This document shows, piece by piece, positions 35,640 through 58,455 of a DNA stretch of 64,000 nt. Position 1 is the first letter of the stretch. Every line of letters begins with the position of its first letter. The stretch spans positions 62,001-126,000 of the forward strand of contig CAMYJW010000030.1 of NCBI GenBank assembly GCA_947258815.1. The letters run 5' to 3'. The position numbers and the translations under genes are program-made. This stretch comes from an uncultured Sphingomonadaceae bacterium. Its GTDB lineage: Bacteria; Pseudomonadota; Alphaproteobacteria; Sphingomonadales; Sphingomonadaceae. Under the pieces are notes generated by a model. That model did no database searches. It had not been told where the DNA came from and saw nothing but the letters and a program-made list of their open reading frames with translations.

Positions 35640-37829
35640 ATGCAAAAGAATATGAGATTTCATCGGGGAAAGAGGGCTTTTGCAGGCCCGATCCTGTCTT
35701 CGTTGCTTGCGATAAATCCAGCCTTCGCCCAATCTGACACCCCCAGTCCGTATATCGAAGCGAACTCACGGAATGAAATTATTGTAACGGCGCGGAAAAT
35801 ACCCGAAAACCTTATTTCCACTCCTGTTTCCGTTACAAGCATTTCCGCCGATACGCTCTCCAGCGCCGGACTGCAGAACACGACCGATCTTACCGCGCTT
35901 GCACCTAACGTCGATATCAATGGCGGCATCGCAGGCCAGCTTCAGGGTCAGATTTCGATCCGTGGAATTTCAACGCTGGTTCGCAACATTGGTCTTGAGA
36001 CCGGGGTCGGTATCTATGTCGACGGCGTCTATGCTGGGCGCCCTGAAAATTTCGCGCAACAACTCCTTGACGTAGAGCGGGTAGAGATCATTCGCGGCCC
36101 GCAAGGCACGGAATTTGGCAAGAACACCATCGCCGGTGTCATCCACGTTCAGACCCGTCAACCCGACGACGAAACCCGAGCCAGCCTTCAGGTTGAAGCG
36201 GGTAACTATTCCTATTTTTCCGGTCAGGCCTCGCTCGGCGGAAAAATAACTGAGCAGTTCTCCCTGCGTGGAGCAATTTCATACGCAAATCGGGACGGCT
36301 TTTACAAACATCTGAGTGGCGGCAAGGATGCTGGTTCGACCGACCTGTTAACCTGGCGTCTTTCAGCAAAATATCAGCCGACATCCGATTTTTCGGTAAT
36401 TCTAAGGGCTGACGGGCTGAGGGATCGGTCCACTCCGGCATTTTTTCAATCGGGCACCTTGGCTGGATTTCCAGATCAGTTCCCGTCCAATCAACCGCAC
36501 CGGATCAACAATAATCGTCCCAACCTTCTCGATCGCGACAACAACGGTGTCTCGATGACGATTGACTGGAACGCGGGGAACGTGGCGTTGACCAGTATCA
36601 CCGCATATCGAGAATCTGGATACGATGCGCAGCTGGATGACGATCAGGAACAGATTGATTTTGTCGCCGCAGACGATTTTTCCGATGATTCAGATTTCTT
36701 CAGCCAGGAACTTCGCGCCACGGGTCTGCTAGGTGCTTTCAGATACCTGGTTGGCGCATACTATTTCGATCAGACGGTAAAGACTGACCGGCGAATTGCG
36801 ATCGGCGAAGCATTGGGAATTCCCGGTGAACCGGCTGTCACAACCACGGGACGAGTCAAGGCGGAGAGCATTGCACTGTTCGGTCGCCTTGACCTTCAGG
36901 CCACTGAACGCCTGCTGCTTTCTGGCGGAATTCGGTTCACCGAGGAAAAGAAATGCGCCGAGTTCGTTCAAGGCGATGCCACGGGAATTTTCACGCTGCT
37001 GGGTATTCCGAATCTGGATTTTGCAGCACGCTCAAAAGACAACGATTTTTCGCCGACGATATCGGCAAGCTATGAGATCGCAGACGGCGTGAACGTGTAT
37101 GGCCGGTTTGCGCAGGGCTTCAAGAGCGCCGCCTTCAATATCGATCTGGCATCTTCGCTGGACGGACTTTCTGCACGTCCCGAGAAAGCAACAAGCTATG
37201 AAGTGGGTCTCAAGACATCACTGCTCAACAACCGCCTGTTTTTCAACCTGTCAGCCTTCCTGACCGACCATAACCGTCTGCAGGTTTCACAGATTTTTGG
37301 CAGTGGTCTGGCGCTTAGCAACGCTGGCAAGGCAACCGCCAAGGGCGTTGAATCGGAAGTGTCGTTTCGGATTCTCCCGAACCTTCGCATCGAAGGTAAC
37401 GCCGCGCTGCTTGACACGCAGTATCAGGATTACCGCAACTGCCTGATCCCGGCATCGGTTGGCGGTGGTGTTGCCGATTGCAGTGGCAATGATCTTGTGC
37501 TCGCGCCGAAATTTACCGGACACGCGGCCATTCAGCTTGACCAGCCCGTGCGTTTTGGTGAGATTTTCGCCCGTGCCGATATCGACTACCGATCATCGGT
37601 TTTCTTTGAGCCGACAAATTCCGCGGACTTCAAGGGAGACAGCCGTACGCTTGTCAATATGCGCGTTGGCATGAAGCATGATAACTGGAGTGTTACGGGC
37701 TGGGTCGAGAACCTCACGAACGAAACCTACAAGACCTATGCCGATGACAGATCTGCCCTGGGCGTTCTGAGAACTGCTGCCTACGGTTCGCCAAGAACCT
37801 ACGGACTGACTGTCGCCACGCGCTTCTGA
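35640..37829 (+). CDS. TonB-dependent receptor
   Basis: NEIIVTARKIPENL TonB box region, plug domain RVEIIRGPQGTEFGKNTIAGVI, terminal aromatic F. Confidence 0.95.
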   Translation: MQKNMRFHRGKRAFAGPILSSLLAINPAFAQSDTPSPYIEANSRNEIIVTARKIPENLISTPVSVTSISADTLSSAGLQNTTDLTALAPNVDINGGIAGQLQGQISIRGISTLVRNIGLETGVGIYVDGVYAGRPENFAQQLLDVERVEIIRGPQGTEFGKNTIAGVIHVQTRQPDDETRASLQVEAGNYSYFSGQASLGGKITEQFSLRGAISYANRDGFYKHLSGGKDAGSTDLLTWRLSAKYQPTSDFSVILRADGLRDRSTPAFFQSGTLAGFPDQFPSNQPHRINNNRPNLLDRDNNGVSMTIDWNAGNVALTSITAYRESGYDAQLDDDQEQIDFVAADDFSDDSDFFSQELRATGLLGAFRYLVGAYYFDQTVKTDRRIAIGEALGIPGEPAVTTTGRVKAESIALFGRLDLQATERLLLSGGIRFTEEKKCAEFVQGDATGIFTLLGIPNLDFAARSKDNDFSPTISASYEIADGVNVYGRFAQGFKSAAFNIDLASSLDGLSARPEKATSYEVGLKTSLLNNRLFFNLSAFLTDHNRLQVSQIFGSGLALSNAGKATAKGVESEVSFRILPNLRIEGNAALLDTQYQDYRNCLIPASVGGGVADCSGNDLVLAPKFTGHAAIQLDQPVRFGEIFARADIDYRSSVFFEPTNSADFKGDSRTLVNMRVGMKHDNWSVTGWVENLTNETYKTYADDRSALGVLRTAAYGSPRTYGLTVATRF

Positions 37830-39580
37830 TCGCGCTCAAGCCACGGCTTGATCGGCCCTGCCGAACATACGACGGGCAATTCGCCGTTCATAAGCAACCG
37901 GGCGGCCTTGCGCCTTTGCACCTTGCCGCTTGTCGTTCGCGGTATCGCCCCTTCCGCAACGAATACCAGGTCCGTCAAACCAAGATCGAGCTGCTCGATA
38001 CACATCGAACGCAACGCCAACGCGAGTTCCTGCGACGCACTTTCGGTCAATTCGTTCAGTTGCGAACGGGCACGTTCCGCAATCAGCACGACATGGCGCT
38101 CATCCCCGATTTCGATCTGCACGGCTGCCGACCGTGCCTGTCCGACATCACCCGATATGTCCGCCCAGATCAGTTCAACATCGCTGGGCGCGAAATTGCG
38201 ACCCTTGATGATGATCAGATCGCTGATCCTGCCCACCACGTAAATTCCATCGGTGCTGGCAAAACCCAGATCGCCGGTTCGCGCATATGGCCCCTCGCCG
38301 GTCGAAAGGAACGCGCCGAACACGTCCTGCGTCGCTTCATCGCGCTGCCAGTACCCCTTGGCGATGTGCGGCCCGCTCAGCCAGATTTCTCCCATCTCGC
38401 CGGTCGGCAGATTGCGCCCCGTATCAGGGTCCACGATAATCGCGGTGCTGCCGGCCATAGCCGGGCCGCAACATGTCAGGTTGACACTGCCACCAGCATC
38501 TTCCTCCACCACCTCGGCACGCCCTTGCGAAAGGGCACCACTGTCAAACCGGCCATATACGGGCTCGCTCCATGGGGGAGCGGCAACGGTCACCAGCGTG
38601 CATTCGGCCAGTCCGTAACAAGGCAAAAACGCGCGCCTGTCGAACCCTATCGGCGCGAAAGTCCGCGCAAACAGATCGAGCGTTCCGGGGCGAACCTGCT
38701 CGGCTCCGTTGAAAGCTACCCGCCAGCTCGAAAGGTCGATATCAGGCAGCCCCTTGCGCTGCGCCTGTCGAACGCAAAGATCAAAACCGAAATTGGGGCC
38801 GCCGCTGGTGTGCGCGCCATATCGCGCTATCAGTTCCAGCCAGCTCAGCGGCGATTTGATGAATGCCGCCGGCGCCGTGAGCACACATGTCGATCCCAGG
38901 AACAGCGGCTGAAGGATGTTTCCGAACAGGCCCTGATCGTGGAAGTGCGGCACCCAGCCAACGAAATGGGAATCACCATCATGGCCAAAAGCATGGCGGA
39001 TTATCGTTTCATCGGCCAGCACGTTGCCATGCGTGATCATCACGCCTTTGGGTTCCTTGGTGGTGCCAGATGTAAACTGGAGAACGGCCAGATCATCGGG
39101 CCCGACGGCAACCGGATCGAACGGCTCCCGATAGTCCGTCAGGCTCTGGAACTCGAGAAAACGGGTTGTCCCGCCTGCAAGCGCGGCGTTGAGCTCCTCC
39201 CCATACATCTTTGCCATCGATGCATCGAGAACCAGCGCTTCGGGATCGAATTGCGCCATGAGAACCAGCAGATTGTTCAACCGCGCGCGACGGCGACCGA
39301 TCGGCGCGATCGGAACCGCGACGCTGCCAACCGCAAAACAGGCCAGCAACGCCCGCACGAAATCGAGACCGGGCGCAAACAGCAGCCCGATCCGCTGGCC
39401 CGCCAGACCGTTTGCCGCAAATGCGCCTGCAAGTTCGCGAATTTCAGTGCCGAGCTGCGCATACGTAAGGCGTTCGACAGCGCCATCACCAAGATCGAAA
39501 ATCAGCGCCGGCCGCTCCGGCTGCGAACGGCCGTGGTCAAGTATTATATCAACTATCGAGCGGTCGTAATTGATTTTCAT
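37799..39580 (-). CDS. Fatty acyl-AMP ligase (FAAL)
   Basis: LQFTSGTTKEPKGVMITHGNV and VPHFHDQGLFGNILQPLFLGSTCVL...SGGPNFGFDLCV, FAAL-type motifs. Confidence 0.92.
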   Translation of the reverse strand: MKINYDRSIVDIILDHGRSQPERPALIFDLGDGAVERLTYAQLGTEIRELAGAFAANGLAGQRIGLLFAPGLDFVRALLACFAVGSVAVPIAPIGRRRARLNNLLVLMAQFDPEALVLDASMAKMYGEELNAALAGGTTRFLEFQSLTDYREPFDPVAVGPDDLAVLQFTSGTTKEPKGVMITHGNVLADETIIRHAFGHDGDSHFVGWVPHFHDQGLFGNILQPLFLGSTCVLTAPAAFIKSPLSWLELIARYGAHTSGGPNFGFDLCVRQAQRKGLPDIDLSSWRVAFNGAEQVRPGTLDLFARTFAPIGFDRRAFLPCYGLAECTLVTVAAPPWSEPVYGRFDSGALSQGRAEVVEEDAGGSVNLTCCGPAMAGSTAIIVDPDTGRNLPTGEMGEIWLSGPHIAKGYWQRDEATQDVFGAFLSTGEGPYARTGDLGFASTDGIYVVGRISDLIIIKGRNFAPSDVELIWADISGDVGQARSAAVQIEIGDERHVVLIAERARSQLNELTESASQELALALRSMCIEQLDLGLTDLVFVAEGAIPRTTSGKVQRRKAARLLMNGELPVVCSAGPIKPWLERDQKRVATVSP

Positions 39581-39643
39581 ATCTTTTAGACCCGGACCGT
39601 TATCATCAATCTCTCTGGTTCACCCGAAATTCCGCATAAGGCA

Positions 39644-40510
39644 TCAAACGGGGCTGAGCGCGATCCGCAACAACGCAATCTTGCGCATTCTGAAGCCCGC
39701 CGCCGACATACGAAGATATCGCGAATATTTGTCTGCCGGATCGGTTTGCGGGTCGACGACACCGCTCCTCACCGCACGCTTGAGGTTTCTGCTCCAGATT
39801 TCGCAAGTGCGCGCGTAATCGAGGCCATCGTCGCGCACCTTTTCTATGTTGAACAAACCATTGGCCGCGACTTCGATATCTTCGAGTGTCGGCAACTCGG
39901 CATCAGGAAATATATCATTTGATATAAATGGGTTGGCTTCTTCAGGTGTCATATTACCATAAGCAATGGTCTGCAGCGAAACACGCCCTTTGCCCTGCGT
40001 CCACGCCCGACAGGCCTTGAAGAACTCGCGATAAACCTCTCGCCGTTCATCAACGGTCTGCTCAGGGTGAGCAAAGTGTTCGAACGCACCGATCGAAATG
40101 ATCCCGTCAAATGGCGCATCCGGTTTGAAATCACGCCAGTTCGTCAGCACTGCATCGATACCGGGAGTTTTCTGGCCACGCAGATGCGCGTGTTGCTCTT
40201 CGCTGAGCGTGACGCCAACGCATTCCTTCACGCCAAAATCGTCCTTCAGGACACGCATCATCGCGCCCCAGCCACACCCGACATCAAGCACGCGCATACC
40301 CTCACCCGCGCCGATCGATTCAGCGTGATACGCGTGCTTGCGGTGCTGGGCTTCGTCCAGCGATGCGTCCTCAGCCAGTCCATCCCACATCGCGCTGGAA
40401 TAGGTCAGCGTCGGATCGAGCCAGGCTGCGAAAAATGCATTTCCCACATCATAGTGATGCCGGATAGCCGAGGCGGAACCGCCAAATTCGATCTCTGGCG
40501 TGGCAGTCAT
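39644..40510 (-). CDS. Cyclopropane-fatty-acyl-phospholipid synthase-like SAM methyltransferase
   Basis: IRHHYDVGNAFFAAWLDPTLTYSSAMW and VLDVGCGWGAMMRVL; ATGA overlap with the upstream ACP. Confidence 0.9.
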   Translation of the reverse strand: MTATPEIEFGGSASAIRHHYDVGNAFFAAWLDPTLTYSSAMWDGLAEDASLDEAQHRKHAYHAESIGAGEGMRVLDVGCGWGAMMRVLKDDFGVKECVGVTLSEEQHAHLRGQKTPGIDAVLTNWRDFKPDAPFDGIISIGAFEHFAHPEQTVDERREVYREFFKACRAWTQGKGRVSLQTIAYGNMTPEEANPFISNDIFPDAELPTLEDIEVAANGLFNIEKVRDDGLDYARTCEIWSRNLKRAVRSGVVDPQTDPADKYSRYLRMSAAGFRMRKIALLRIALSPV

Positions 40511-40815
40511 TGGAGCGCCGAATATTGCTGATCGCCGGACGCCATCGCACGAACGGCCGCTGCCATGTTTTCAGAGGCCTGTGCTATCGATTCAGCTTCA
40601 AACAGCAACTCAAGCGGCAGTTCGTCGGGCAATTCCAGCCAGTCCTCAAAACCGGTCATCAATTCGATGGCCTTCCCTGAATCGATGCCGAAACTTTCAA
40701 AGCTTGCATCACGCGACACCGCTTCCGCCGTGATGTTGACGAATTCCGCAATTCGCGCGCTGATCCACGCTTCAATTTCCGCGGAGGTGATTTCCTGAAT
40801 TCTTTTGACGCTCAT
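40507..40815 (-). CDS. Acyl carrier protein (start approximate)
   Basis: FESFGIDSGKAIELMTGFEDWL phosphopantetheine-attachment motif. Confidence 0.88.
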   Translation of the reverse strand: MSVKRIQEITSAEIEAWISARIAEFVNITAEAVSRDASFESFGIDSGKAIELMTGFEDWLELPDELPLELLFEAESIAQASENMAAAVRAMASGDQQYSALQ

Positions 40816-40883
40816 CCCATCTCTCCGGATCGCAAGCATGCCCTACCGGAACATTTTACCACCACGATGACAAGCCTTGCGGG

Positions 40884-41684
40884 CTAGGAAACCCGGCGAA
40901 CGGGCGAGTTATCCAGAGTTGAGAAAGAACCGTAATATTCGGCCGGTCGTTTCGACGGCGCCTCGGCAATTGGCGTGGGAGCGGCCTCAGGCTGAGAAGC
41001 CAGCTTCTTCAGGTCCGGCCGCGTGCACATGATCCGGTTCGCCGCATCGTGAACGCTGTTTTCTCCGGGCCGAAGTTCATGAATCTCGATGAAAGACGGC
41101 TGCGGCAGGCCCCACATCTTTCGCATTTTCTCAAGCGCGGTTTCCGAAACCTCAAGCTCATAGGCAACGGCATCGCCTTCATCGTAAGGCACGGCCGGAC
41201 CAAGCAACTTGAGCTTCCAGCCGACACCATAACAAAAGCTCAGCATTCGGACATCGGTGAAGCCGACACAGCGATCAACGCCCGCATTCAGCGCAATTTC
41301 AAGCGGTGCGATCATGCACGCGGCCTTTCGCCGCAAATTGTGCCTGCGCACGCCGCGTTCAACCGAAAATCCACGACTGAGTTCCCAGGTCTTGCCATCG
41401 TTGATCGGGCGAATATCGGCGGGAAGCACATGGGCAAAGTGATCGACGAGCATCGAACGATCGTCAGCGGGCCGAAAGCGCAGCCCCATCACAACCTCTC
41501 CATCAGACGAAAAGCCGACGACATTGCTTGCGCGTTCGTCGTCATACTCGTCAAATTCCATACCATCCAGAACCGGCAGGTTCCAGCTCAGCTCATCAAC
41601 GAAAACAGCCTTGCGGGCGCGATGAATCCCTTTGATTTCTTCGCCATACAGGTGGCAGTTTTCCGGCGAAATGAGGTGTATCAA
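40884..41684 (-). CDS. LuxI-type acyl-homoserine-lactone synthase (TTG start)
   Basis: RARKAVFVDELSWNLPVLDGMEFDEYDD, MGLRFRPAD, WELSRGFSVE; RBS AGGGAG upstream of TTG. Confidence 0.93.
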   Translation of the reverse strand: MIHLISPENCHLYGEEIKGIHRARKAVFVDELSWNLPVLDGMEFDEYDDERASNVVGFSSDGEVVMGLRFRPADDRSMLVDHFAHVLPADIRPINDGKTWELSRGFSVERGVRRHNLRRKAACMIAPLEIALNAGVDRCVGFTDVRMLSFCYGVGWKLKLLGPAVPYDEGDAVAYELEVSETALEKMRKMWGLPQPSFIEIHELRPGENSVHDAANRIMCTRPDLKKLASQPEAAPTPIAEAPSKRPAEYYGSFSTLDNSPVRRVS

Positions 41685-42004: not shown

Positions 42005-42571
42005 TCAGCGGTGACCGGCTGACATTTTCAGTTGGGCACGATCACGATGCACCTGCACTGCAAAAGCTGAAATGCCAAGCTGTTCTCCCGCATCCAGGTC
42101 GCAGACACCCTGCTCTGAAAATTCAAGAGATCTACGTTGGGCAGTTGTGAGCTGAACTGACTGCGTATCCGATTTCGCCTCAACAAGCGTCAACAGACGG
42201 CAGAGATACAGAACCGACATCGTATGGAGGTTCGCCTCGTCCTCACGGGTCAGCGAGGCACCGGGATGAAAGACTTCAACGATATATGGGCGATCATCCC
42301 ATCCCCTTACCGCGAATTCGGTGGATGAGGTGTTTCCACAATCAATTTCCGCTGATCCCTGACCGGTTCGGGAGCTGAGAAGCATCGAACGGTTTTCGCT
42401 CTCGTCAAGCGCGTAGCAGACATGGCCGGAAACACCGTTCAGTTCGAGTGCGCGCGAGAAGCGCTCGCGAAGGTCCTCTGCCGTCAGCGCATCGTTTACA
42501 CCATTACAAAACTCGGTGAACGCCGGAACACTGCCAGACTGCATCTTCGTGGTTGGGAAATGCTGAACCAT
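42005..42571 (-). CDS. Short LuxR-family-like regulator with divergent HTH
   Basis: C-terminal LTTAQRRSLEFSEQGVCDLDAGEQLGISAFAVQVHRDRAQLKM aligns by eye to the LuxR HTH; 188 aa; next to luxI. Confidence 0.6.
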   Translation of the reverse strand: MVQHFPTTKMQSGSVPAFTEFCNGVNDALTAEDLRERFSRALELNGVSGHVCYALDESENRSMLLSSRTGQGSAEIDCGNTSSTEFAVRGWDDRPYIVEVFHPGASLTREDEANLHTMSVLYLCRLLTLVEAKSDTQSVQLTTAQRRSLEFSEQGVCDLDAGEQLGISAFAVQVHRDRAQLKMSAGHR

Positions 42572-42767: not shown

Positions 42768-44930
42768 ATGCCTGAAAACCATCGCCTGATTGAGGTTCAG
42801 ACCATTGAACCAACAAGGCACGGCAGCCTGATCGAGGATGAACTCGGAGCGGCCGGCATTCACCTTGTTCGCGTTGGTGCTGAGGGCTTCGATGCGCCGA
42901 AAACCGCCCTTTCCAGCAAGCTCGGGATAGGACCGGACAGCTCCGCCCGAAACATTTTTCGTCAGCTCGGCACGAAGAACCGCAAACACCTGCTCAGCGC
43001 CATGATCGTGGCCCGAAAAACCGCAAGCGCAACCTGCAAGCTTGAGATGTCGGACGATACCGTAAAAAAGCCCGGAGACATCCAGTGGCTTCGCGTTCAC
43101 GTCCGGTTCGACCAATCAGACGCGCATGCGCGCTGGACGTTCGTTGCAGTCGATATTTCCGGCGAACAACTTGCTCTGGAAAATCTCAAGGCGGAAGAAG
43201 AACATCTGCGCCATATCGTTGAGTACAATCCGCAGCTGCCCTGGATCGCGGATGCAAATGGCCAGATTATCGATTTTACGGACCGTTGGCTGAACTCGAC
43301 CGGTATGTCTCGCAATGAAGCCGTTGGCGAGGGTTGGCTAAAAAAGACGCATCCCGACGATATCGAACGTGTCGGCGGAACGATCTCCAGATGCCATAAG
43401 AGCGGCGAACCGTTTGATGAGACGATCCGCCTCGAAGTCAACGGAACCTACCGATGGATGCGCGCCCGTGGATACCCGCGCCGTGATGAAAACGGCAACG
43501 TCGTCTGCTGGTATGGATACACTGAAGACGTCCACGAGAAGGTCCTGATCGATCAGCAGATTCTCTGGGACGCGGAGCACGATTCACTGACCGGGCTGCA
43601 CAATCGCGCCTATTTCTCGACGAAGCTGGAAAAAGCCATCAAGGCCGCGCCTGCAAATCTGAAGAAGGTTGCGCTGCTGCTTGTCGATCTGGACAATTTC
43701 AAACAGGTCAACGATCTGATGGGGCACGTTGCCGGCGACGATCTCATTCGCAAGTTCGCCGAGGCGCTAAGGGCGGCAGCTCCTGCGGACGCTGCGGTTG
43801 CGCGTCTTGGAGGCGACGAATTCGCGATTCTGCTGAACGGCCTCAACGAAGTCTCCGAAGCGGTCGAGGTTGCAGAGGCAATACTGCGACTGCAGGGCAA
43901 TTTCGATTTTGGCGGGCGCTCGGTAACCTATCACGCAAGTGTCGGCATCGGCATGTTCCCGGAGCACGGCATCGATGCCAATCAGCTTTTGCGGCACACC
44001 GACCTTGCGCTCTACAAGGCAAAATCGAATGGCCGCGCCCAGATACAGGTTTTCGCGAAGGAAATGCTGGATGACATGCAAGAGCGTGTCGCCATGGTCA
44101 ACCGGGCCAGAACCGCAGCGCGCGAGGGCCGCATCCTGGCCTACTATCAGCCAAAAGTCTGCCTCAGAACCCGCAAGCTGGCGGGTTTCGAAGCCCTGCT
44201 GCGCTGGCAGGACAATCTGGGAAAGATCCATGCACCGGCAAGCATCTACGCCGCGTTCGATGAAAAGACTGTCGCGGAACTGCTCGGAAAAACGATGATC
44301 AGCCACATCTTCGATGACATCTCGTCATGGAAGAGCCAGGGCCTGGAATTTCATCAGGTTGCAATCAACGCATCGCCTGTTGAAATGCGGCAATCAGATT
44401 TCGTCACCCGGCTTACCGACGAGATGAAGGCCTGCGATATTGCAATTTCAGAAATCGAAATCGAGATAACCGAAGGCGTTTTTATCGGAACCAATGCGGA
44501 TACGTCACGCAAGTCGATCGATCAGTTGCACAAGGCCGGAATTCCCCTTGCGCTTGACGATTTCGGAACCGGCTATGCGTCGCTGTCTCACCTTCGCAAT
44601 CTGCCAGTCTCCACGCTGAAGATCGATCGAAGTTTTGTGCAGGATCTGGCCGATAACACATCCGATTTTGCAATCGTTTCCGCCATTATCGCCATGGGCA
44701 AGGCCAGCGGGATGAAAGTTGTCGCCGAAGGTATCGAAAACAAGACACAGGAAGATCTGCTTACTGACCTCGGCTGCGATATCGGGCAGGGCTTTCTGCT
44801 TGGAAAGCCGATCCCGGCGCATGACGTCGCATGGCTGATCGAACACTGGGAAGAATATCTGGAACGCAACGTACAACCGCCCAAATGGGCCATAGATGTT
44901 CCGATGAGACGCGCAAACGACGCAAACTGA
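42768..44930 (+). CDS. PAS-GGDEF-EAL protein (c-di-GMP turnover)
   Basis: ARLGGDEFAILL and FEALLRW, DDFGTGYASLSHLRNLP motifs intact. Confidence 0.94.
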   Translation: MPENHRLIEVQTIEPTRHGSLIEDELGAAGIHLVRVGAEGFDAPKTALSSKLGIGPDSSARNIFRQLGTKNRKHLLSAMIVARKTASATCKLEMSDDTVKKPGDIQWLRVHVRFDQSDAHARWTFVAVDISGEQLALENLKAEEEHLRHIVEYNPQLPWIADANGQIIDFTDRWLNSTGMSRNEAVGEGWLKKTHPDDIERVGGTISRCHKSGEPFDETIRLEVNGTYRWMRARGYPRRDENGNVVCWYGYTEDVHEKVLIDQQILWDAEHDSLTGLHNRAYFSTKLEKAIKAAPANLKKVALLLVDLDNFKQVNDLMGHVAGDDLIRKFAEALRAAAPADAAVARLGGDEFAILLNGLNEVSEAVEVAEAILRLQGNFDFGGRSVTYHASVGIGMFPEHGIDANQLLRHTDLALYKAKSNGRAQIQVFAKEMLDDMQERVAMVNRARTAAREGRILAYYQPKVCLRTRKLAGFEALLRWQDNLGKIHAPASIYAAFDEKTVAELLGKTMISHIFDDISSWKSQGLEFHQVAINASPVEMRQSDFVTRLTDEMKACDIAISEIEIEITEGVFIGTNADTSRKSIDQLHKAGIPLALDDFGTGYASLSHLRNLPVSTLKIDRSFVQDLADNTSDFAIVSAIIAMGKASGMKVVAEGIENKTQEDLLTDLGCDIGQGFLLGKPIPAHDVAWLIEHWEEYLERNVQPPKWAIDVPMRRANDAN

Positions 44931-44972: not shown

Positions 44973-46868
44973 TCAACTCACGCCAAGGTGCGCCAGCGAG
45001 CGATCCAGCATCATCAGTTGCCACAGCAATCGCGAGTGGTCTGACATCCCTGAAATATGCGCCTCGGCCATTGTTGAAAGCCGTTTGCTGTCAAACCAGC
45101 CCGTGCGCGCCAGCGCTGTGCTGGTCGGGATTTCACGCGCAGTGTCGGCCAGGGGCCCGCGAAACCATTGCGCGATTGGCGTTACGAAACCCTGCTTGGG
45201 CCGGTAGAGGATGTCGTCAGGCAAATAGCGGCGCATGGCGTGCTTCATCAGCCACTTGCCCTGCCCCTTGCGAATGCGCAGGTCTTCGGGAAGCGACGCG
45301 GCAAATTCGATAAGCCGGTGATCGAGCAGCGGTTCGCGCGCTTCGAGGCTGACGGCCATGCTCGTGCGGTCCACCTTGGTCAGAATATCGCCGGGCAGCC
45401 AGAATTTGAGATCGGCATATTGCGCACGATCCAGACCCGATCGCGCCGGTGCATCGCGCATCAACGCTTCGAAAGGCTGTTCGGCCCGATAATCTCCGCG
45501 CAGTTTCAGAAAATCGCTGGAGTAGATGCGATCGCGCAGCTCTGGCGGCGTCACCGACATCGCCCGCGAATACCCCTCCTCGCTGCTCGCCGAGAGCGAC
45601 ATGAAGGTTGTTTTCGCGCGCAGGAACCGGGGCGCCCAGTCCGCCTTCGGGTATATCCTGCCGAGCGTTCCAAACACCGGACCGCGCAATGCCTGCGGCA
45701 GAAAACCGCGCATCCGGTCTTCATAGTGCTGAAACACATGGCGGCGATACCCGGCCAGCGCTTCATCCGCGCCATCGCCCGAAAGCGCGACTGTCACCTG
45801 TTCGCGCGCCAACTGGCAGACGCGCCATGTCGGTAAGGCGGAGGCATCGGCAAACGGCTCGTCAAACATGCCCGAAAGTGCATCGAGTGCTTCGAAGTCA
45901 TCCGGTGAAACAGTTCGCGAACGGTGATCGGTGGCAAACGTCTGCGCGATTGTCCGCGCATAGTCACTTTCATCCAGAGCGCGCTCATCAAATCCGATTG
46001 AGCATGACCGGACAGGATCGGCGCTTGCATCAGACATCAGCGCGACCACGCTTGAGCTATCCACCCCGCCCGACAGGAAAGCGCCCAGAGGAACGTCGGA
46101 CACCATTCGCGACGTCACCGCCTGACGCATCAGATGCAGCAGTTCCGCCTCAAGATCGGCTGGCTTTTCCGCGCGGCGATCTGCAAAGGAAACGTCCCAC
46201 CAGCAAGCCGGTTCCGGCAAAGGCGCGCCCGTTCGCAGCAGCATGGAATGCCCGGCGGGCAGCTTCTTCACGCCCTTGAGGATCGATCGCGTATCGGGCA
46301 CATAGCCCCAGGTGAGATAGTCCTCCACCGCCAGAGGATCGACTTCGCGCCGCAGCTGCGGATGTGCGGCCAGCGCTTTCAATTCCGAGGCAAATGCCAC
46401 GCTACCGTCGCTCAACCGCACGTAAAACAGCGGTTTAACACCCAGCCGGTCCCGCGCAAGAAACAGCGTGCGCTTCTCCAGATCATAGATCGCGAAGGCA
46501 AACATGCCGTGCAGATGGGTTACGCAATCAACACCCCAGCGCTGCCACGCGGCAAGAATAACCTCGCTGTCGCCATCGGTGCGGAATGTCGCGCCAGCCT
46601 CGCCCAGTTCCTTGCGCAGTTCGCGAAAGTTGTAGATCTCACCATTGAAAACCAGCATCGCGCGACCATCGCCCGACGCCATCGGCTGCGGAGATCCTTC
46701 AAGGTCGATGATCGAAAGCCTGCGATGGCCCAGCCCGACGCCGGGCGCGGTCCAAACCCCATGCCCGTCAGGCCCGCGATGCGCGATGGCATCGCACATG
46801 CGTTCAACCCGCACCGGATCGACCGGCTTGGGCGTTTCGAGATGAAAGATACCGGCAATCCCGCACAT
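44973..46868 (-). CDS. Asparagine synthase (glutamine-hydrolysing) family amidotransferase, XrtA-associated
   Basis: MCGIAGIFHLE N-terminal Cys, SGGVDSSSVVALMSD; start corrected to 46868. Confidence 0.92.
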   Translation of the reverse strand: MCGIAGIFHLETPKPVDPVRVERMCDAIAHRGPDGHGVWTAPGVGLGHRRLSIIDLEGSPQPMASGDGRAMLVFNGEIYNFRELRKELGEAGATFRTDGDSEVILAAWQRWGVDCVTHLHGMFAFAIYDLEKRTLFLARDRLGVKPLFYVRLSDGSVAFASELKALAAHPQLRREVDPLAVEDYLTWGYVPDTRSILKGVKKLPAGHSMLLRTGAPLPEPACWWDVSFADRRAEKPADLEAELLHLMRQAVTSRMVSDVPLGAFLSGGVDSSSVVALMSDASADPVRSCSIGFDERALDESDYARTIAQTFATDHRSRTVSPDDFEALDALSGMFDEPFADASALPTWRVCQLAREQVTVALSGDGADEALAGYRRHVFQHYEDRMRGFLPQALRGPVFGTLGRIYPKADWAPRFLRAKTTFMSLSASSEEGYSRAMSVTPPELRDRIYSSDFLKLRGDYRAEQPFEALMRDAPARSGLDRAQYADLKFWLPGDILTKVDRTSMAVSLEAREPLLDHRLIEFAASLPEDLRIRKGQGKWLMKHAMRRYLPDDILYRPKQGFVTPIAQWFRGPLADTAREIPTSTALARTGWFDSKRLSTMAEAHISGMSDHSRLLWQLMMLDRSLAHLGVS

Positions 46869-46879
46869 GGCGCTGGCCT

Positions 46880-48442
46880 CTACTCCACGCCGCTGATGCG
46901 GTCCATCCACTGATCGAGCGGGGCAACAGCCTTGTGAAAGGCGCGCACCGCATCCTCGGCCGGCTGATCGGGCCTGTCCTCAGCCGAAAGGATAAGCATC
47001 GCGGTGGGGCGGGCGGTCAATGTCAGCCGGTCAATCATCGTTGCGAGTTTGAGTCTGGCGTTGCTGCCGCTCAACAGTGACCCTGTATGATACCAGGTCA
47101 TCGCCAGCCGGTTGATCCGGCCTCTTGCCAGCATGCGTTCGCTGTATGCGCCGTCAAGCGATGGCCCTGAGGCCAGCCATGACCATTCGCTGTCAGGCAT
47201 CAGCGCGCCTTCGCCAAATCCGCCTGCTTCGCGGCCTTCGCCCTGCCCTGCATACAACGCAAGAAACACATCGACCTCGCGCCCCTGGATATCGCGATAC
47301 CGGCCCAGAAGACGATGATCGGCGCCGTTCGCGCGGGGTTCCCAAATCACTTGCGGCGCATAGTCAACGCGCTGCCAGCCTTCAACGACAGGGAGCGCCG
47401 CAATTGCGGGCAACTGCGCTTCAAGGCGATTTGCCGCCGCCGCCCAACCCTGGCTCGCCAGAACGATCAGAGCCAGACTCGCAACCGCCACAGCCGGGCC
47501 CACGGCAAATTTTGAGAGCCGTTCGAGCAAAACCGAACGATTGATCGCATCGACATCAACGATCGGATCTTCAATCGGGCGATCGAAGTAGCGCCATGCG
47601 CCCACCACCACCAACGCAAGCACGATTGCAAAGAAGAACCAGCCGTAAACGATGTGATCGAAACCCGCTGCAACCTCGGCACCGAAAATTTGTGCAGCAT
47701 AGATTGTCGCAAAGGCCCTGAACCCGTTAGCCAGTATCGGCACGACAATGCAGGCCAGAAGGAAGATCGCCCGTCGTTTCCAGCCCAGGAAACACACGTT
47801 TGCCACCAGCAGGCCAAACGCGATCATCGCAATCAGGAACTTCACGCCCGAACAGGCCTCGGCCACTTCGAACAGGCCGGCTGGCGTGTCGATGAAAACG
47901 CCGTCGATCACCGCGGGAATGCCGCTCAGATCGACCAGCGCAATCGTGATCGCGGCGGTGATCATCTGTAATGTCGGGATCAGTTCATCGCCGAACGGAA
48001 CCAGCAGCAACATATAGCACAGCGGAAACAGCAGCCCTGCACCGACGCGCACGCCAAGTAGCACCGGCACGGTCGATGCCAACAGTACCGTCGCGCCCAA
48101 TTGCCGTGCAAGATCAAGCCCGGAGAATGCACCCAGCACCCACATAAACGCCGCGCCAAGCGCAATCACCAGACCCGGCCACCATGGCCTGGGCGCAATT
48201 TCCGCCAGTTCGGGCGCGCGCTGGATAACCATCCAGCCGATAATCACCGGGATCAGAATGATGTGATTGTAGGTTGAGCTGTTCCAGGCCTGATCGGCAA
48301 TCGCCGCCCAGTCACGGAAGAACACCGCCCCCAGCACCAGCCAGACAACCGCAAGGCATGCAAGTGGCGCGCGCCAGACGTGTGGAATGTGCAATCCGTC
48401 ACGCAGCGCCCCGAAGGGGAGTGTCAGCCCCTCACGCGGCAT
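46880..48442 (-). CDS. xrtA: Exosortase A with C-terminal EpsI-like domain
   Basis: EACSGVKFL (Cys), NGFRAF (Arg), DHIVYGWFFF (His) catalytic triad; long C-terminal extension WQRVDYAPQVIWEPR... Confidence 0.9.
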   Translation of the reverse strand: MPREGLTLPFGALRDGLHIPHVWRAPLACLAVVWLVLGAVFFRDWAAIADQAWNSSTYNHIILIPVIIGWMVIQRAPELAEIAPRPWWPGLVIALGAAFMWVLGAFSGLDLARQLGATVLLASTVPVLLGVRVGAGLLFPLCYMLLLVPFGDELIPTLQMITAAITIALVDLSGIPAVIDGVFIDTPAGLFEVAEACSGVKFLIAMIAFGLLVANVCFLGWKRRAIFLLACIVVPILANGFRAFATIYAAQIFGAEVAAGFDHIVYGWFFFAIVLALVVVGAWRYFDRPIEDPIVDVDAINRSVLLERLSKFAVGPAVAVASLALIVLASQGWAAAANRLEAQLPAIAALPVVEGWQRVDYAPQVIWEPRANGADHRLLGRYRDIQGREVDVFLALYAGQGEGREAGGFGEGALMPDSEWSWLASGPSLDGAYSERMLARGRINRLAMTWYHTGSLLSGSNARLKLATMIDRLTLTARPTAMLILSAEDRPDQPAEDAVRAFHKAVAPLDQWMDRISGVE

Positions 48443-49667
48443 CGCGACATGTCCGTGCGTTCGCGCCCATGATATCGGGCAAGGAAGCCAGCGCCGCTTC
48501 CCAGCTGGCATTGGCCACCACAAATTTGCGCGCGGCCTGCCTCATTGCCTGCGCCGCGCCGGTGTCCTTCAGCAAGGAAACCGCCGCATCGGCAAGGCTG
48601 GCGTTGTCCGCCGCAATCTGGAAATCCCGCCCGGATTGCGCACCGATCCCGGTTGCAGCCTCGGGCGTGAGAACAACCGGCAAGGCCATCGCCATCGCCT
48701 CAAGCACCTTGTTCTGAACGCCGCGCCCGATATCAAGCGGCACCAGCGCCAGATCGGCGGCTTTCAGCCAGGTGAGAATGTCAGGCACCCGGCCCCAGAC
48801 ATGGCAGCCATCTTTTCCATGGCGATTGAGAAGTGAATCGGGCGGATTGCGCCCGACAATGTGAAACGTCGCATCGGGTATCCGGGCACGAACCAGCGGC
48901 AGGATTGCGTCCATCGCGCGCACAACCGCATCGATGTTGGGCGCATAGTCCATCTGCCCGGTGAACACGATGCGCGGCCCCGGCGCCGCCAGCATCCTGG
49001 GTTCCGGCTCTGCCTTCGCAGGATCGAAACCGACACTGTCAATCCCGTTTGCAAGCGTGCGAACATCGGTTGCGGCCCGCAATGTGTCTGGCAGACGCTG
49101 CCTGAACAACGCGACTTCGGCATCGGAAATCAACAGGCTGACATCGGCCCGGCTTGCCAGCCTTGCTTCTTCGACACGCAGCTTGCGCCCTTCGCGCGCG
49201 TCGATCCAGCTGCGCACACCATGCTTGCCAGCGGCGTAAGCCTCAAACTTCGCGGAATCGACATCGACAAAATCGGCCACAATCCGCCCGCCGAACGATG
49301 GCGGCACATACTGGCCCATCTGGCCCGAAAACACATAGATCGCCGAAATCGGACGGCGTGCCAGCAAGTCTGCAACGTATGCTGCAAGCTCTGCACTGTA
49401 GAACGCTGTAAGGCTTACCGGTGTGCGCATCGCCAGCGCCTGCACGCCGGCAAGCGGTAAAGGCTTGGACCGGCGGACAAGATTATAGCTTTTCGCAAGG
49501 TCCGCCATTGCCGCTTCCTCTGCCAGATCGGCATCGTCATCGGCGAAAGTAGCCACATGGACCGGTGCGATCCGGGCAAGGCGCTTCAGGATATGGTGGG
49601 ACCGGATCTTGTCGCCGCGATCGGGTGGGAACGGGATGCGATGGGCGAGAAACAGAATCTCGCGCAT
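48432..49667 (-). CDS. Glycosyltransferase, XrtA-associated (family 1-like)
   Basis: FLAHRIPFPPDRGDKIRSHHILKRLA, GPRIVFTGQMDYAPNIDAV. Confidence 0.9.
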   Translation of the reverse strand: MREILFLAHRIPFPPDRGDKIRSHHILKRLARIAPVHVATFADDDADLAEEAAMADLAKSYNLVRRSKPLPLAGVQALAMRTPVSLTAFYSAELAAYVADLLARRPISAIYVFSGQMGQYVPPSFGGRIVADFVDVDSAKFEAYAAGKHGVRSWIDAREGRKLRVEEARLASRADVSLLISDAEVALFRQRLPDTLRAATDVRTLANGIDSVGFDPAKAEPEPRMLAAPGPRIVFTGQMDYAPNIDAVVRAMDAILPLVRARIPDATFHIVGRNPPDSLLNRHGKDGCHVWGRVPDILTWLKAADLALVPLDIGRGVQNKVLEAMAMALPVVLTPEAATGIGAQSGRDFQIAADNASLADAAVSLLKDTGAAQAMRQAARKFVVANASWEAALASLPDIMGANARTCRDAA

Positions 49668-50746
49668 CAGCCAAGCCCCCTCGCGATCAGCGGCCCAAGC
49701 CGATTGGCAACAGATAAAGGCAGGCGCTGCCAGAGGGCGATCTGCAAGCGATGTTTCGCGCTGGTCGGATCGGCATCGCGGGCTTCGTGGCCGGGAGCGG
49801 TCCAGCTTGCATATGTCAGCGGTTCGGGTTCAAAACCCCAGTTGCGTTTGAAGTGATAGGCGCCGCTGTTTGTCTTCGACCGGCCAAAATCGAACTGGCT
49901 GCATCCGCGGCGACGCGCGTGCAGCATCAGTTCGTAATACATCCGGTCATTGGCGCGCAGGCGGCGCGCATCCCACGTTCCGCCACCCCAGTAAGGCATC
50001 ACCGCACCACGATGATACAGCGAGAGCACGCTGGCGACTGCGCGCCCTTCGTGGCGCACGGTGAGAATATCGGCATCCTCGCCGAACTGATCGAGCACCG
50101 CATCGAACAGCGCGCGCGGAAACACCGGCGTGCCCAGATTGCGAACGCTTTGCGCATAGACATCGTAATGCGCCCTGCGATCTTCCTCGGTGCGGCCGAT
50201 CACGATTTCGTGGCTGATTTTCAGCCCTTTGCGGACTTCGGCGCGCTGTTTGCGCGGAATCGCCAACAGCTGCGCTTCATCATCATCAGCAAGGGCGGTA
50301 ACAAATCCGCAGTGCGAATCCGTGCGGTGCGCCCAGCCCGCCGCACCCGCATTCGGCAAAGTGCCGCCGCGCAGCTCTATCGTGGGGCAGGACAAGCGCT
50401 CAGCCAGTTCCCGTGCCGCCGCGAACAGCCTGTCAAGATCGGCATCATCCGATGCCAGCACGCCCCCGCCCACGGCAAACCCGGTTGACGCAAGCAGCCT
50501 GCCGAAAATCGGCGACGAAACATCGGACAACGGCAGGTATGCGCAAATTTCGCCTGAATTTTCAGCCACCAGCGCCATATCGCGATTGCCTGTTCCCGCC
50601 CGCACCGCTTCAAGCCATGCCGGGCGGTGAAACGGCGTGCCCTCTGGATGCGCGTTGACGAATGCGTCTATCCGCGCGCGTTCGTTCGGATCGGACAGAT
50701 CGGTCAGCCTGATCCGGTCATCCGTCATGATGAAGGGCGCGTTCAT
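49667..50746 (-). CDS. FemAB-family XrtA/PEP-CTERM-associated protein
   Basis: FHRPAWLEAVRAGTG...LRANDRMYYELMLHARRRGCSQFDFGRSKTNSGAYHFKRNWGFEP. Confidence 0.9.
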   Translation of the reverse strand: MNAPFIMTDDRIRLTDLSDPNERARIDAFVNAHPEGTPFHRPAWLEAVRAGTGNRDMALVAENSGEICAYLPLSDVSSPIFGRLLASTGFAVGGGVLASDDADLDRLFAAARELAERLSCPTIELRGGTLPNAGAAGWAHRTDSHCGFVTALADDDEAQLLAIPRKQRAEVRKGLKISHEIVIGRTEEDRRAHYDVYAQSVRNLGTPVFPRALFDAVLDQFGEDADILTVRHEGRAVASVLSLYHRGAVMPYWGGGTWDARRLRANDRMYYELMLHARRRGCSQFDFGRSKTNSGAYHFKRNWGFEPEPLTYASWTAPGHEARDADPTSAKHRLQIALWQRLPLSVANRLGPLIARGLG

Positions 50747-51615
50747 GCGGCAAGCGTAACGGCCTCAGCCGCTTCCCGTCTTGCCAGCACGTCCATGCGG
50801 CCCCAGCTGAATTCATTCACCAGCTGGATCAGCTTATCCGACATGCCTTCAAGGTTTGTGTAATGGCGCAGGCGTGATTTCATCGGCGCCTGTGGCACAC
50901 GCGGCTGATCGGGATCGATTTCCCACGGATGGAAATAGAACACCGCAGGTCTGCGATCGCGGCGGTTCACCTGCCGGATTGCCCAGCGCGAAAAGCCATA
51001 GGGCAGCACCCGGAAGAACCCCCCGCCCCCGGCGGCGAGCCTCCGTCCGGCGAACGTGGCGGTGGTTACGGGAATCTCGATCAGATCGGACCAGGGCAGC
51101 GGTTTGAAAGCAAAGCGCGGCGCTTCCTGCCAGCCATAATGATCATGCGCGACGGGAGCGACGCTGGAACTGTATGCAAAGCCCTGTTCAGCCAGAATCA
51201 TGTAGGCCCATGGCGTGCGCTGATCGATGGAGAAGCTGGGCGCGCGATAGCCCAGGATCGGCATTCCTGCGGCATCTTCGAGTGCCTTTCGGCTTTTCTC
51301 AAGGTCAAGCGCGAAACTCTCGCGATCCATGCGGAACACCCGCGCATGATCCCATCCGTGACTGGCAAGTTCATGGCCCTGCGCGGAAATTCGCTGCATC
51401 AACGCCGGATGACGTTTTGCCACCCAGCCAAGCGTGAAGAACGTGGCCTTGACATCGGCATCGGCGAACATCTGCAAAATCGCATCGCAGTTGCGCTCGA
51501 CACGATCGGTCAGCGAGCCCCAGTCATCCTTGTCGATGACATTCTCGAACGCGCCAACGTGGAACCAGTCCTCGACATCGACGGACAGGCCATTGGTGGG
51601 ATACAGTTCATCCAC
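50743..51615 (-). CDS. Polysaccharide deacetylase, XrtA-associated
   Basis: NGLSVDVEDWFHV, FFTLGWVAKRHP, ELASHGWDH NodB motifs. Confidence 0.93.
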   Translation of the reverse strand: MDELYPTNGLSVDVEDWFHVGAFENVIDKDDWGSLTDRVERNCDAILQMFADADVKATFFTLGWVAKRHPALMQRISAQGHELASHGWDHARVFRMDRESFALDLEKSRKALEDAAGMPILGYRAPSFSIDQRTPWAYMILAEQGFAYSSSVAPVAHDHYGWQEAPRFAFKPLPWSDLIEIPVTTATFAGRRLAAGGGGFFRVLPYGFSRWAIRQVNRRDRRPAVFYFHPWEIDPDQPRVPQAPMKSRLRHYTNLEGMSDKLIQLVNEFSWGRMDVLARREAAEAVTLAA

Positions 51616-51638
51616 GCTAGGATAACTCCGGTTTGAGA

Positions 51639-53195
51639 TCAGGCAGCGTCGCGATCGCCCTCACCCGATTCGATCCATTCGATCAGCATGGTAAGCGTGT
51701 GGCGAATGGTGCGGTCCTGCTCGATAATCCGGCCTTCAAGCGCGGAAATACGCTCGCTCAGATCGTTGATCTGCGCGTCCGCGTCCTTATCGCGCCCGAT
51801 ATTGTCATCGTGCGCGTCAGACAGTTCCACCACGGCCTGTTGCAATTCCGCGATCTGTTCGTCGCGCTCCGCCAACATCGCCTGAACTTCGTCGGCAGCA
51901 AGACCTGCGACGGCCTCTACGCGCGCGGCAGCAGACGGCGCATCGGCTGGCTCTGCATCGGGCACCGGCGCTGGCGACGCTTCAACCGGCATTTCGAACT
52001 GTCCGGTCGGCTCGGCAGCCTCTGCCGTTTCGTCTGCACCCGGTTCTCCGGTCGGTTCAGGCCCGTCGCCCGGAGCCGCGAACGGAGGCGAGAATGCGGC
52101 CGGAGCCGCATCGGCTTCTTCGCTCGCATCCATTTCGGATTCGAACGGATCTTCGACAAGTTCCGAGATACCCCAGTTCACGTCCGCCGCATCGTCGCTT
52201 TGCGCGCCCTCGTTCGTCTCGGCATCTTCGCGAACCGGCGCTTCGTCCAGTTCGGAGATATCCTCAACCGTAATGCCAACCCGGCTTTCAGACCCTTCAG
52301 GTTCGTCACGGGTTTCAGCAACAGCGGGCGAGGCAGTATCTTCGGCTGGTGTGGCATCAACCGCACCGGCCAGGCCGAATGCGCCATCGTCGCACAAATC
52401 CGTCAGAACCTTTTCGACCATCGGCCCGTCAATCCGCGCGCGCTCATCGACCGAGCCAAGCAGCAAAAGGCGATTGACGATCTGGTTGATCCGGCGCGGA
52501 ATGCCCCCGGTCGCCTCATGAATCTCAACAAAAACCCGCTGATCGAAGGACGGATTGCCATCCCATCCCACGCATTTCAGGCGATGTTCGATATAGTGCT
52601 GCACTTCCTGCAACTCCATCGCCGCAAGGTGATGCGTGGCGATAACGCGCTGGCGCAGCTGCTCAAGCCCGGAATGTTTCGCCAGCGTATCGCGAAACTC
52701 GGGTTGGCCAAGCAAAAGCGTTTGCAGCAGCGGATGCGATCCAAGCTGAAAGTTTGAAAGCATGCGCAGCTCTTCAAGCGCTTCAACAGACAGGTTCTGC
52801 GATTCATCGACAATCAGCAGACAGCGCCGTCCGGCCCGCGCCTCATCGTGCAGAAAGCTCTCGATCGCGCCAAGCGCCGATGCCTTGTCATGCCCTTCGA
52901 TCATCAGGCCGAACGCCTGCGCGACGACATGGATGATCTCTTCGCCATCAAGCTTGCTGGTCACAACTTGCGCCGCGGTCAGCCGCGAAGGATCAATCGT
53001 CTGCATCAGGTGCGCAACAAGCGTGGACTTCCCCGCTCCGACCTCGCCGGTAATCACGACAAAACCCTCACCCTGGGCAAGTCCATATCCAAGATACGAC
53101 AGCGCCTTGCGGTGTGTCTGGCTTTCGAAATAAAATGCCGGATCGGGTGTCAGCTGGAACGGACGACCGGTCAGACCATAGAAATTATCGAACAT
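51639..53195 (-). CDS. XrtA-associated ExeA/GspA-like AAA ATPase with acidic C-terminal extension
   Basis: MFDNFYGLTGRPFQLTPDPAFYFES, TGEVGAGKSTLVAHLM, LLIVDESQNL. Confidence 0.9.
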   Translation of the reverse strand: MFDNFYGLTGRPFQLTPDPAFYFESQTHRKALSYLGYGLAQGEGFVVITGEVGAGKSTLVAHLMQTIDPSRLTAAQVVTSKLDGEEIIHVVAQAFGLMIEGHDKASALGAIESFLHDEARAGRRCLLIVDESQNLSVEALEELRMLSNFQLGSHPLLQTLLLGQPEFRDTLAKHSGLEQLRQRVIATHHLAAMELQEVQHYIEHRLKCVGWDGNPSFDQRVFVEIHEATGGIPRRINQIVNRLLLLGSVDERARIDGPMVEKVLTDLCDDGAFGLAGAVDATPAEDTASPAVAETRDEPEGSESRVGITVEDISELDEAPVREDAETNEGAQSDDAADVNWGISELVEDPFESEMDASEEADAAPAAFSPPFAAPGDGPEPTGEPGADETAEAAEPTGQFEMPVEASPAPVPDAEPADAPSAAARVEAVAGLAADEVQAMLAERDEQIAELQQAVVELSDAHDDNIGRDKDADAQINDLSERISALEGRIIEQDRTIRHTLTMLIEWIESGEGDRDAA

Positions 53196-53213
53196 CGTGA
53201 CTTTCCTTCACGC

Positions 53214-54944: not shown

Positions 54945-56065
54945 CCTCCATATCCATAGTAAGTGCCGAAGCTGCGGCCACTTGGGCTGAAATGAACCGC
55001 ATTGAGCAGCAGCTCGATATTGGGACAGCCGGAAAGCAGCGAAATCGCGTCTTCAAGCGCGCCCTGACCGGTCTGGTCAGCGCGGGCCACCATGATGACC
55101 TGCCCCACATATTTCGCCAGTTCGGCGGCAGGCGATGCGGCAAGTGCGGGCGGAGAATCCACCACCACAAGCCGCTGCGGTGTGCCTTCGGTCAGACGGT
55201 CGAGCACGCGGGCCGTGCGCGAAGAACCAAGATATTCCGTGTCCGAATTGGTCGTATCGCCCGCAGGCAATACCCACAGGCCCGGAATATCCGTGCCGAT
55301 CACAAAATCCGCAACATCGGCGCTGTTGTCAGCAAGCGCGTCCATCAGCCCCGGACCGCCGGGCAGCCCAAGCGCAGTCAGAACCGAAGGCTTGGCAAAG
55401 TCCGCATCGACAAGCAGAACCTCGCTTTCCTTTTCCGCCGCAATCGCAAGCGCAAGGTTCAGCGCACAGAATGTCTTTCCTTCGTTGGGATGAGGCGAAC
55501 TGATCAGAATTCGCTGCGCAAGCGCGCCGCCGCCCTGCTGTCGCAGGTCGGACGCCTGCAGCATGATCTTGCGTTTCACGATCCGAAATTCTTCAAGCAA
55601 CGCGGTGACTTTGCCTTCCGGTACGATCAGTCCCTGGTCGCGAAGGCTCTTGCGATCGACAGGATGGCGTTCATCGCGAAACCTGACCGGCTGGACCACC
55701 GGCTCGGATTGCTCGTGGTCAGTCGATCTCCTGAGCGCGGCTGTGACGGGCACGGTTTCTGCAACCGGGTCTTCAACCGGGTCCTCCGCGCACGGTTCGG
55801 CCAGACCTGTCCGGGCGGAAGGCACATGAAGCACATCGGGTATCGGATCGGGCGCGGGTTGCTGTTCCGCTTGTGCTAATGCGGGCGTCTCCGGTTGCCG
55901 GTGTACCGCGCGGCGCGGTTTCTCCGGGCCCAGATCACCGGGCACAGGCGGGGGCGCAAAACTTGTAAAATCAAGTTTTCCCGCGGCACGTTCTATCAGG
56001 GAATTGCCTTTCACGGCCTTTGCACCATCACTGGGCGGAACGGGGATTTTGCGCTGTTCAGTCAT
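54941..56065 (-). CDS. XrtA-associated tyrosine autokinase (BY-kinase)
   Basis: ISSPHPNEGKTFCALNLALA Walker A, VLLVDADFAKPS, C-terminal YYGYGG. Confidence 0.92.
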   Translation of the reverse strand: MTEQRKIPVPPSDGAKAVKGNSLIERAAGKLDFTSFAPPPVPGDLGPEKPRRAVHRQPETPALAQAEQQPAPDPIPDVLHVPSARTGLAEPCAEDPVEDPVAETVPVTAALRRSTDHEQSEPVVQPVRFRDERHPVDRKSLRDQGLIVPEGKVTALLEEFRIVKRKIMLQASDLRQQGGGALAQRILISSPHPNEGKTFCALNLALAIAAEKESEVLLVDADFAKPSVLTALGLPGGPGLMDALADNSADVADFVIGTDIPGLWVLPAGDTTNSDTEYLGSSRTARVLDRLTEGTPQRLVVVDSPPALAASPAAELAKYVGQVIMVARADQTGQGALEDAISLLSGCPNIELLLNAVHFSPSGRSFGTYYGYGG

Positions 56066-56076
56066 TTCGATCCCCC

Positions 56077-57597: not shown

Positions 57598-57622
57598 TGC
57601 GGTTTTCCGGTCCTTCCGTCGC

Positions 57623-58279: not shown

Positions 58280-58389
58280 GTGTGCATCCCTGTCTGCGCC
58301 ATGAAACGCATGCCGGGCTGCAGAGCCGACGCGCGAGACTTGGCAAAATCAGCCTCCGCTATCGGCAAAAAGGGTGAATATAGCGTTAG

Positions 58390-58450: not shown

Positions 58451-58455
58451 CTTTC

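Follow-up and report, generated by a model that had tools for sequence, protein, structure and literature searches.

Known LuxI enzymes, the synthases of acyl-homoserine lactone (AHL) quorum sensing, mostly use acyl chains from primary metabolism, and the diversity of their signals is limited by the cell's own acyl pool. Here we analyze a locus of an uncultured Sphingomonadaceae bacterium in which luxI shares an operon with genes for a fatty acyl-AMP ligase (FAAL), a dedicated acyl carrier protein (ACP) and an S-adenosylmethionine (SAM) methyltransferase of the cyclopropane fatty acid (CFA)/mycolic acid type (hereafter, MT). The locus lies in a window of 64,000 nucleotides, the whole stretch analyzed (assembly GCA_947258815.1, contig CAMYJW010000030.1, positions 62,001 to 126,000), from a genome of 3.35 Mb that is reported as 100% complete. 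With a probability of roughly 0.6, we read it as a self-contained quorum-signalling cassette that has its own acyl-chain supply.

Parts of this arrangement have been described in other systems. The nearest precedent for tailoring linked to luxI is the three-gene R1-I1-crotonase circuit of Mesorhizobium japonicum, which makes 2E,4E-C12:2-HSL and in which the tailoring gene is needed for the unusual AHL (PMC10470506); that circuit relies on one tailoring enzyme of the coenzyme A (CoA) type, whereas the cassette has a carrier-bound FAAL-ACP-MT supply line. In mass spectra, the lactone fragment at m/z 102 is missing for some 2-enoyl AHLs (PMC10470506). Modules of the JamABC/TtuABC type and the polyyne modules combine a FAAL, a free-standing ACP and an acyl-modifying enzyme in one operon (PMC11837247). 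All three components of such a carrier-bound tailoring module are present in the cassette, but the modifying enzyme there is a desaturase, while here it is the MT, with LuxI as the only candidate for release. In a 2025 review of FAALs (PMC11837247), "quorum", "homoserine" and "cyclopropan" do not occur. In Acinetobacter, a luxI-type system (abaI) is tied to an ACP-containing lipid operon (A1S_0112-0119, acinetin 505); AbaI-dependent quorum sensing regulates a nonribosomal peptide synthetase (NRPS) lipopeptide in that case, whereas the cassette has neither an NRPS nor a separate release enzyme. Like LuxI/LuxR systems in general, the cassette has a LuxI family enzyme with an intact active site and, just upstream, a receptor-like protein with a LuxR-type helix-turn-helix (HTH). 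It differs in that its LuxI shares no more than 29% identity with any other LuxI compared, its receptor lacks a recognisable PF03472 domain, and it adds the FAAL, ACP and MT genes of the operon together with genes for a TonB-dependent receptor and a GGDEF-EAL protein. We found no description of this operon in the open-licence literature, although subscription papers may hold one; the initial annotation, made from the sequence of the window, had likewise known of no characterised example.

That annotation had placed four co-directional genes at 37799-41684, and all four are there, intact, on the minus strand: luxI (40884-41684), ACP (40507-40839), MT (39644-40510) and FAAL (37799-39580). Its family calls are borne out by domain matches to PF00765 for LuxI (E 1.6e-24; 87 bits vs. 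a cut-off of 24), PF00550 for the ACP (E 5e-8, with an FGIDS phosphopantetheine site), PF02353 for the MT (E 3.4e-57) and PF00501 for the ligase (E 2e-60). The ATGA coupling it had noted is a real overlap of 4 nt between the ACP and MT reading frames; in the Sphingobium loci the same overlap recurs and luxI and ACP overlap by a further 1 nt. The start codon of luxI is a TTG that is kept in the Sphingobium relatives, and the ACP likely starts at the second ATG, at 40815, which is preceded by GGAGAG.

The boundary of the unit had been drawn too narrowly. Judged from gene neighbourhoods, three further genes belong to the cassette. A compact LuxR-like regulator of 188 aa (42005-42571, minus strand), with an LuxR-type HTH and a shortened ligand-domain-like N-terminus, is encoded on the same strand as luxI and, in every record, immediately upstream of it. 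Divergent from it is a gene for a PAS-GGDEF-EAL enzyme of cyclic di-GMP (c-di-GMP) metabolism (42768-44930, plus strand; Pfam). At the other side, a gene for a TonB-dependent outer-membrane receptor (35640-37829, plus strand; Pfam) is convergent with the FAAL gene and overlaps its end. A cytochrome P450 gene (34245-35531, plus strand), upstream of the receptor gene and co-directional with it, is probably part of the unit as an accessory member.

The association of LuxI with FAAL and ACP, for which the initial annotation had suggested a synteny search, is conserved and translationally coupled; the lack of conservation that the annotation had named as refuting its model is thus not observed. Ten records have this LuxI (the window, seven Sphingobium species genomes, one metagenome-assembled genome (MAG) and plasmid pTomMM15a), and the core order LuxR-like–LuxI–ACP–MT–FAAL is found in all ten. 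Scanning about 85,000 species genomes with LuxI yielded five relatives (loci L032-L036; 50-65% identical), each with the core order, the TonB-dependent receptor and the GGDEF-EAL gene; beyond the cassette genes, nothing is common to the window and these five loci, and the flanks differ. A genus scan with the MT matched 7 of 94 Sphingobium genomes, including three further loci, with LuxI and the rest of the set present in each case and no MT without LuxI. Among 401 genomes of the window's order, the search at E ≤ 1e-40 returned no second MT beside the window genome's own match, and in 60 related genomes no FAAL, ACP or MT homologue lies within 1.5 kb of other luxI genes. S. indicum B90A carries a plasmid copy on pSRL2, which is the same locus as L067, and Sphingobium sp. 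TomMM15 also has a copy on a plasmid.

The outer genes are more mobile in position. The TonB-dependent receptor gene lies between the GGDEF-EAL and LuxR-like genes in L032-L034 and beyond FAAL in the window, L035 and L036, and is kept in 10/10 records (truncated in one) though its side of the operon varies. The PAS-GGDEF-EAL gene adjoins the cluster in nine of the ten records, the exception being a plasmid copy damaged by an insertion sequence. On that copy, B90A pSRL2 (L038 3048-5579), the receptor gene is cut short beside an IS6100 transposase, a natural partial loss, and the GGDEF-EAL gene is absent from the stretch read. P450s 67-69% identical are encoded beside the receptor in L039, L065 and L067, which with the window makes four records; none is found at L032-L036.

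The reading frames of all seven genes are intact in the loci used, and every gene is under purifying selection, with median ratios of nonsynonymous to synonymous substitution (dN/dS, near pairs) of 0.10 for MT, 0.15 for LuxI, 0.16 for the TonB-dependent receptor, 0.19 for FAAL, 0.21 for both the LuxR-like and GGDEF-EAL proteins, and 0.27 for ACP. Correlations between the matrices of pairwise distances for the seven proteins are 0.93-0.99; the cassette genes co-diverge. Such figures bear on the idea that the neighbourhood is decayed or fortuitous, with a luxI solo and a broken luxR lying beside unrelated lipid genes, an idea which finds a foothold in the report that Sphingobium luxI solos adjoin "N-terminal truncated" LuxR-like genes (Gan et al. 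2015, PMC4288048). We consider it highly improbable and reject it as a general explanation: the set is conserved in all ten records across 50-75% identity, dN/dS is low in every gene, the LuxR-like one included, and the same content persists in rearranged order. By elimination, the single unpaired luxI that Gan et al. listed for S. chlorophenolicum NBRC 16172 is the one studied here, since the other two luxI genes of that strain adjoin PF03472 genes. The conservation thus argues against viewing these luxI solos and truncated LuxR genes as remnants.

From the gene set we infer a route, including its catalytic steps, its product and the parts played by the outer genes. The FAAL would adenylate a free fatty acid, probably an unsaturated one, and load it onto the dedicated ACP; the MT would use SAM to add one carbon to the ACP-bound chain as a methyl branch, methylene or cyclopropane; in some strains the P450 may oxidise the chain; and LuxI would move the chain to SAM, setting free an unusual AHL. 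The compact LuxR-like protein would read this product, with the TonB-dependent receptor serving uptake and the PAS-GGDEF-EAL protein a downstream c-di-GMP output. The order FAAL, ACP, MT, LuxI, which the initial annotation had also put forward, is the best supported because LuxI is the only conserved enzyme that could release an acyl chain. A fully specified version, in which a new class of signal, a methyl-branched or cyclopropane long-chain AHL, is built from a scavenged fatty acid on its private carrier protein, taken up by its own TonB-dependent importer and not by free diffusion, and sensed by a compact LuxR receptor with a link to c-di-GMP, is a tentative proposal that we would sooner expect to be wrong in some part than right throughout.

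The supply enzymes fit their assigned families. FAAL-specific models lead the NCBIfam matches of the ligase, yet its scores lie below their whole-protein cut-offs; the solved structures listed as its relatives at E ≤ 1e-40 are all FAALs or FAAL domains, and the protein appears to be a fatty acyl-AMP ligase rather than an acyl-CoA synthetase. Its alignment with solved FAALs extends across the region of the FAAL-specific insertion, which blocks the use of CoA. The DS site of the ACP is intact, and FGIDS is kept in the relatives. For the MT, the closest solved relatives are the mycobacterial enzymes CmaA2 (E 2.8e-56), MmaA2 and CmaA1. We rejected the possibility that it is the housekeeping Cfa, since it is of the short, FAAL-linked type, without the N-terminal domain of housekeeping Cfa, and the genome holds three other full-length cyclopropane mycolic acid synthase (CMAS) genes.

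The FAAL-ACP-MT module also occurs on its own. Relatives of the MT (39-53% identity) are found in Actinobacteria and other Proteobacteria, on plasmids of Rhodococcus, Pseudonocardia, Thalassospira, Polaromonas and Tistrella, where they sit with a FAAL and an ACP (no ACP was detected in Rhodococcus); several of these loci carry a desaturase and a P450, and those of Pseudonocardia and Thalassospira a thioesterase or hydrolase. There is no LuxI near the MT in these loci from other phyla and classes. As far as gene content tells, then, the module exists independently of LuxI and is coupled to it in sphingomonads. The plasmid modules with FAAL, ACP and CMAS genes (L040-L044) resemble a separate, uncharacterised pathway to modified fatty acids. 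The sphingomonad cluster has no conserved thioesterase, NRPS or acyltransferase, which leaves LuxI as the only candidate release enzyme. LuxI would take the release step here, given that the LuxI-free modules carry other enzymes, several of them a thioesterase or hydrolase. Since desaturases accompany the LuxI-free relatives, the comparison also suggests that the MT acts on a double bond, whether the outcome is a methyl, methylene or cyclopropane group.

LuxI itself is the only PF00765 match in the whole window genome. It is 55-66% identical to the relatives compared, and R24, F28, W34, D45, D48, R69, E101 and R104 are invariant in ten sequences; by sequence, its catalytic and SAM-site residues appear intact and it qualifies as a member of the family. 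It has a C-terminal extension of ~60 aa.

Several observations weigh against the proposed route, whose weakest link is the hand-over from ACP to LuxI. The nearest solved structures to this LuxI are the acyl-CoA-dependent BjaI and RpaI. The Lys/Arg pair of the ACP-recognition helix in LasI, EsaI, TofI and TraI is replaced by Ser and Gly, also in most of the relatives, and by Gly and His in L036; the known basic motif is missing and therefore lends no support to a direct ACP-to-LuxI transfer. At the MT, Glu144 and Tyr232 are kept, but in each of the 15 FAAL-linked members aligned Gln180 stands where CFA-type enzymes have a His. We take the Glu, His and Tyr of CFA/CmaA enzymes to form the bicarbonate site, with His as a bicarbonate ligand; the replacement therefore makes the reaction type uncertain, and cyclopropanation should not be assumed. 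No desaturase is linked to the cassette in sphingomonads. On the receptor side, the HTH of the window's LuxR-like protein is the weakest of the set (E 0.012, below the cut-off), and no LuxR-like orthologue matches the PF03472 autoinducer domain.

The premise of the initial annotation that LuxI enzymes use acyl-ACP donors accordingly finds no support for this LuxI, and the natural ACP-to-LuxI transfer in the scheme cannot be presumed, even as the order of steps stands. In members of the BjaI/RpaI clade, which also lack the basic ACP-helix residues, that lack has been linked to CoA use, but BjaI turns over isovaleryl-ACP with an unchanged kcat and a higher Km (Christensen et al., PMC4234381). 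The cassette LuxI differs from this clade in that it lacks the WW(L)PR stretch and is accompanied by a FAAL and a dedicated ACP, whereas the clade is fed by CoA ligases. In the LuxI tree it lies nearer the BjaI clade than the ACP types, and its branch falls next to a Phenylobacterium plasmid LuxI and outside BjaI/RpaI, but the inner node supports of this tree are low (0.25-0.88). A FAAL is expected to pass its acyl group to a carrier protein and not to CoA; LuxI would therefore meet the ACP by another surface, or the hand-over differs. An invariant stretch, R118-R119-K120, is a candidate for such an alternative contact surface.

The missing motif also lends weight to a quorum-controlled lipid pathway, in which an ordinary AHL, made from CoA or the housekeeping ACP, switches on a separate lipid made by FAAL, ACP and MT (with the P450 where present) and released by an enzyme encoded elsewhere; the TonB-dependent receptor would then import that lipid or its bound ligand. 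Precedents exist, as a luxI locus controls a FAAL/ACP/NRPS lipopeptide operon for acinetin 505 in Acinetobacter (PMC5376624, PMC8088503), one survey found luxI in 47% of luxR-linked biosynthetic clusters (PMC5872303), and the LuxI-free modules exist and hence make something without LuxI. Against this, no acceptor or release enzyme besides LuxI is conserved in the cluster, it is the ACP and not a receptor that is translationally coupled to luxI, and neither the window genome nor MAG G430 has a canonical AHL receptor. We consider this pathway the main, though unlikely, alternative to the self-contained signalling cassette.

Whether the cassette brings its own receptor turns on the LuxR-like protein. 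The default Pfam scan assigned it to no family; the GerE HTH (PF00196) was matched in 9/10 orthologues (best 6.7e-10). The window genome and MAG G430, each with only this luxI, encode no PF03472 protein, and the canonical AHL receptor is missing from two of six genomes checked. From an alignment of orthologues, an AlphaFold model of the L032 protein was obtained with a predicted local distance difference test (pLDDT) score of 84; folding of the window protein from its single sequence reached 37. The first 21 PDB matches of this model are all LuxR receptors (best E 1e-4), among them the TraR anti-activation complex, SdiA, RhlR, CviR and QscR; the whole-chain template modelling (TM) score is ~0.44 with a high root-mean-square deviation, the domain orientation differs, and the ligand domain is shortened. 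The model thus predicts a LuxR-receptor-like fold.

In Sphingobium, the spacer between the LuxR-like gene and luxI contains a partial dyad and a conserved stretch that resembles a promoter. In L034 the dyad CCTGTATAATATGTTACAGG (9949-9968) has lux-box-like half sites at a spacing of 8, not 6. Because this dyad is degenerate in the other loci and not common to the window, we claim no lux box upstream of luxI.

The TonB-dependent receptor invites another reading, that LuxI releases an AHL-type lipid without a signalling role, such as a surfactant, membrane lipid or metal ligand, which the cell takes up again through the receptor. The persistence of the receptor gene despite rearrangement would suit this, as would the two genomes without a canonical AHL receptor and the receptor's score of 186 bits with a siderophore-receptor model, which does not reach the cut-off of 223.5. 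But TonB receptors have many substrates. Moreover, the LuxR-fold regulator, under purifying selection directly upstream of luxI in every record, and the c-di-GMP enzyme that adjoins the cluster in nine both suggest signalling, and we think a non-signalling product improbable.

Some neighbouring genes vary among the loci. After FAAL, six Sphingobium loci encode a predicted secreted protein of 200 aa that belongs to no known family (L032 13861-14466; orthologues in L033, L034, L065, L066 and L067; 78-83% identity) and is absent from the window, L035, L036 and L039. On plasmid pTomMM15a, a short gene of the phage-integrase type directly follows FAAL (L039 11824-12453), a possible trace of mobility. 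In the window, an XrtA/PEP-CTERM (exosortase A) exopolysaccharide locus directly adjoins the cassette (44973-61205) but is not common to the other loci; its genes encode an amidotransferase, XrtA, a glycosyltransferase, a FemAB-like protein, an ATPase, a tyrosine kinase, a chain-length determinant, a decarboxylase and an acyl-CoA ligase.

With its receptor, importer and c-di-GMP gene, the locus looks like a complete signalling cassette. If this reading is right, a LuxI equipped with a loading ligase, a carrier and a methyltransferase of its own would amount to an assembly line devoted to a private signal, and AHL chemistry would extend to C-methylated or cyclopropane chains. It would raise the question whether a dedicated ACP can serve a LuxI that lacks the ACP motif. 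It would also give a function to the "luxI solos" and "truncated LuxR" genes of Sphingobium, which the literature has treated as remnants.

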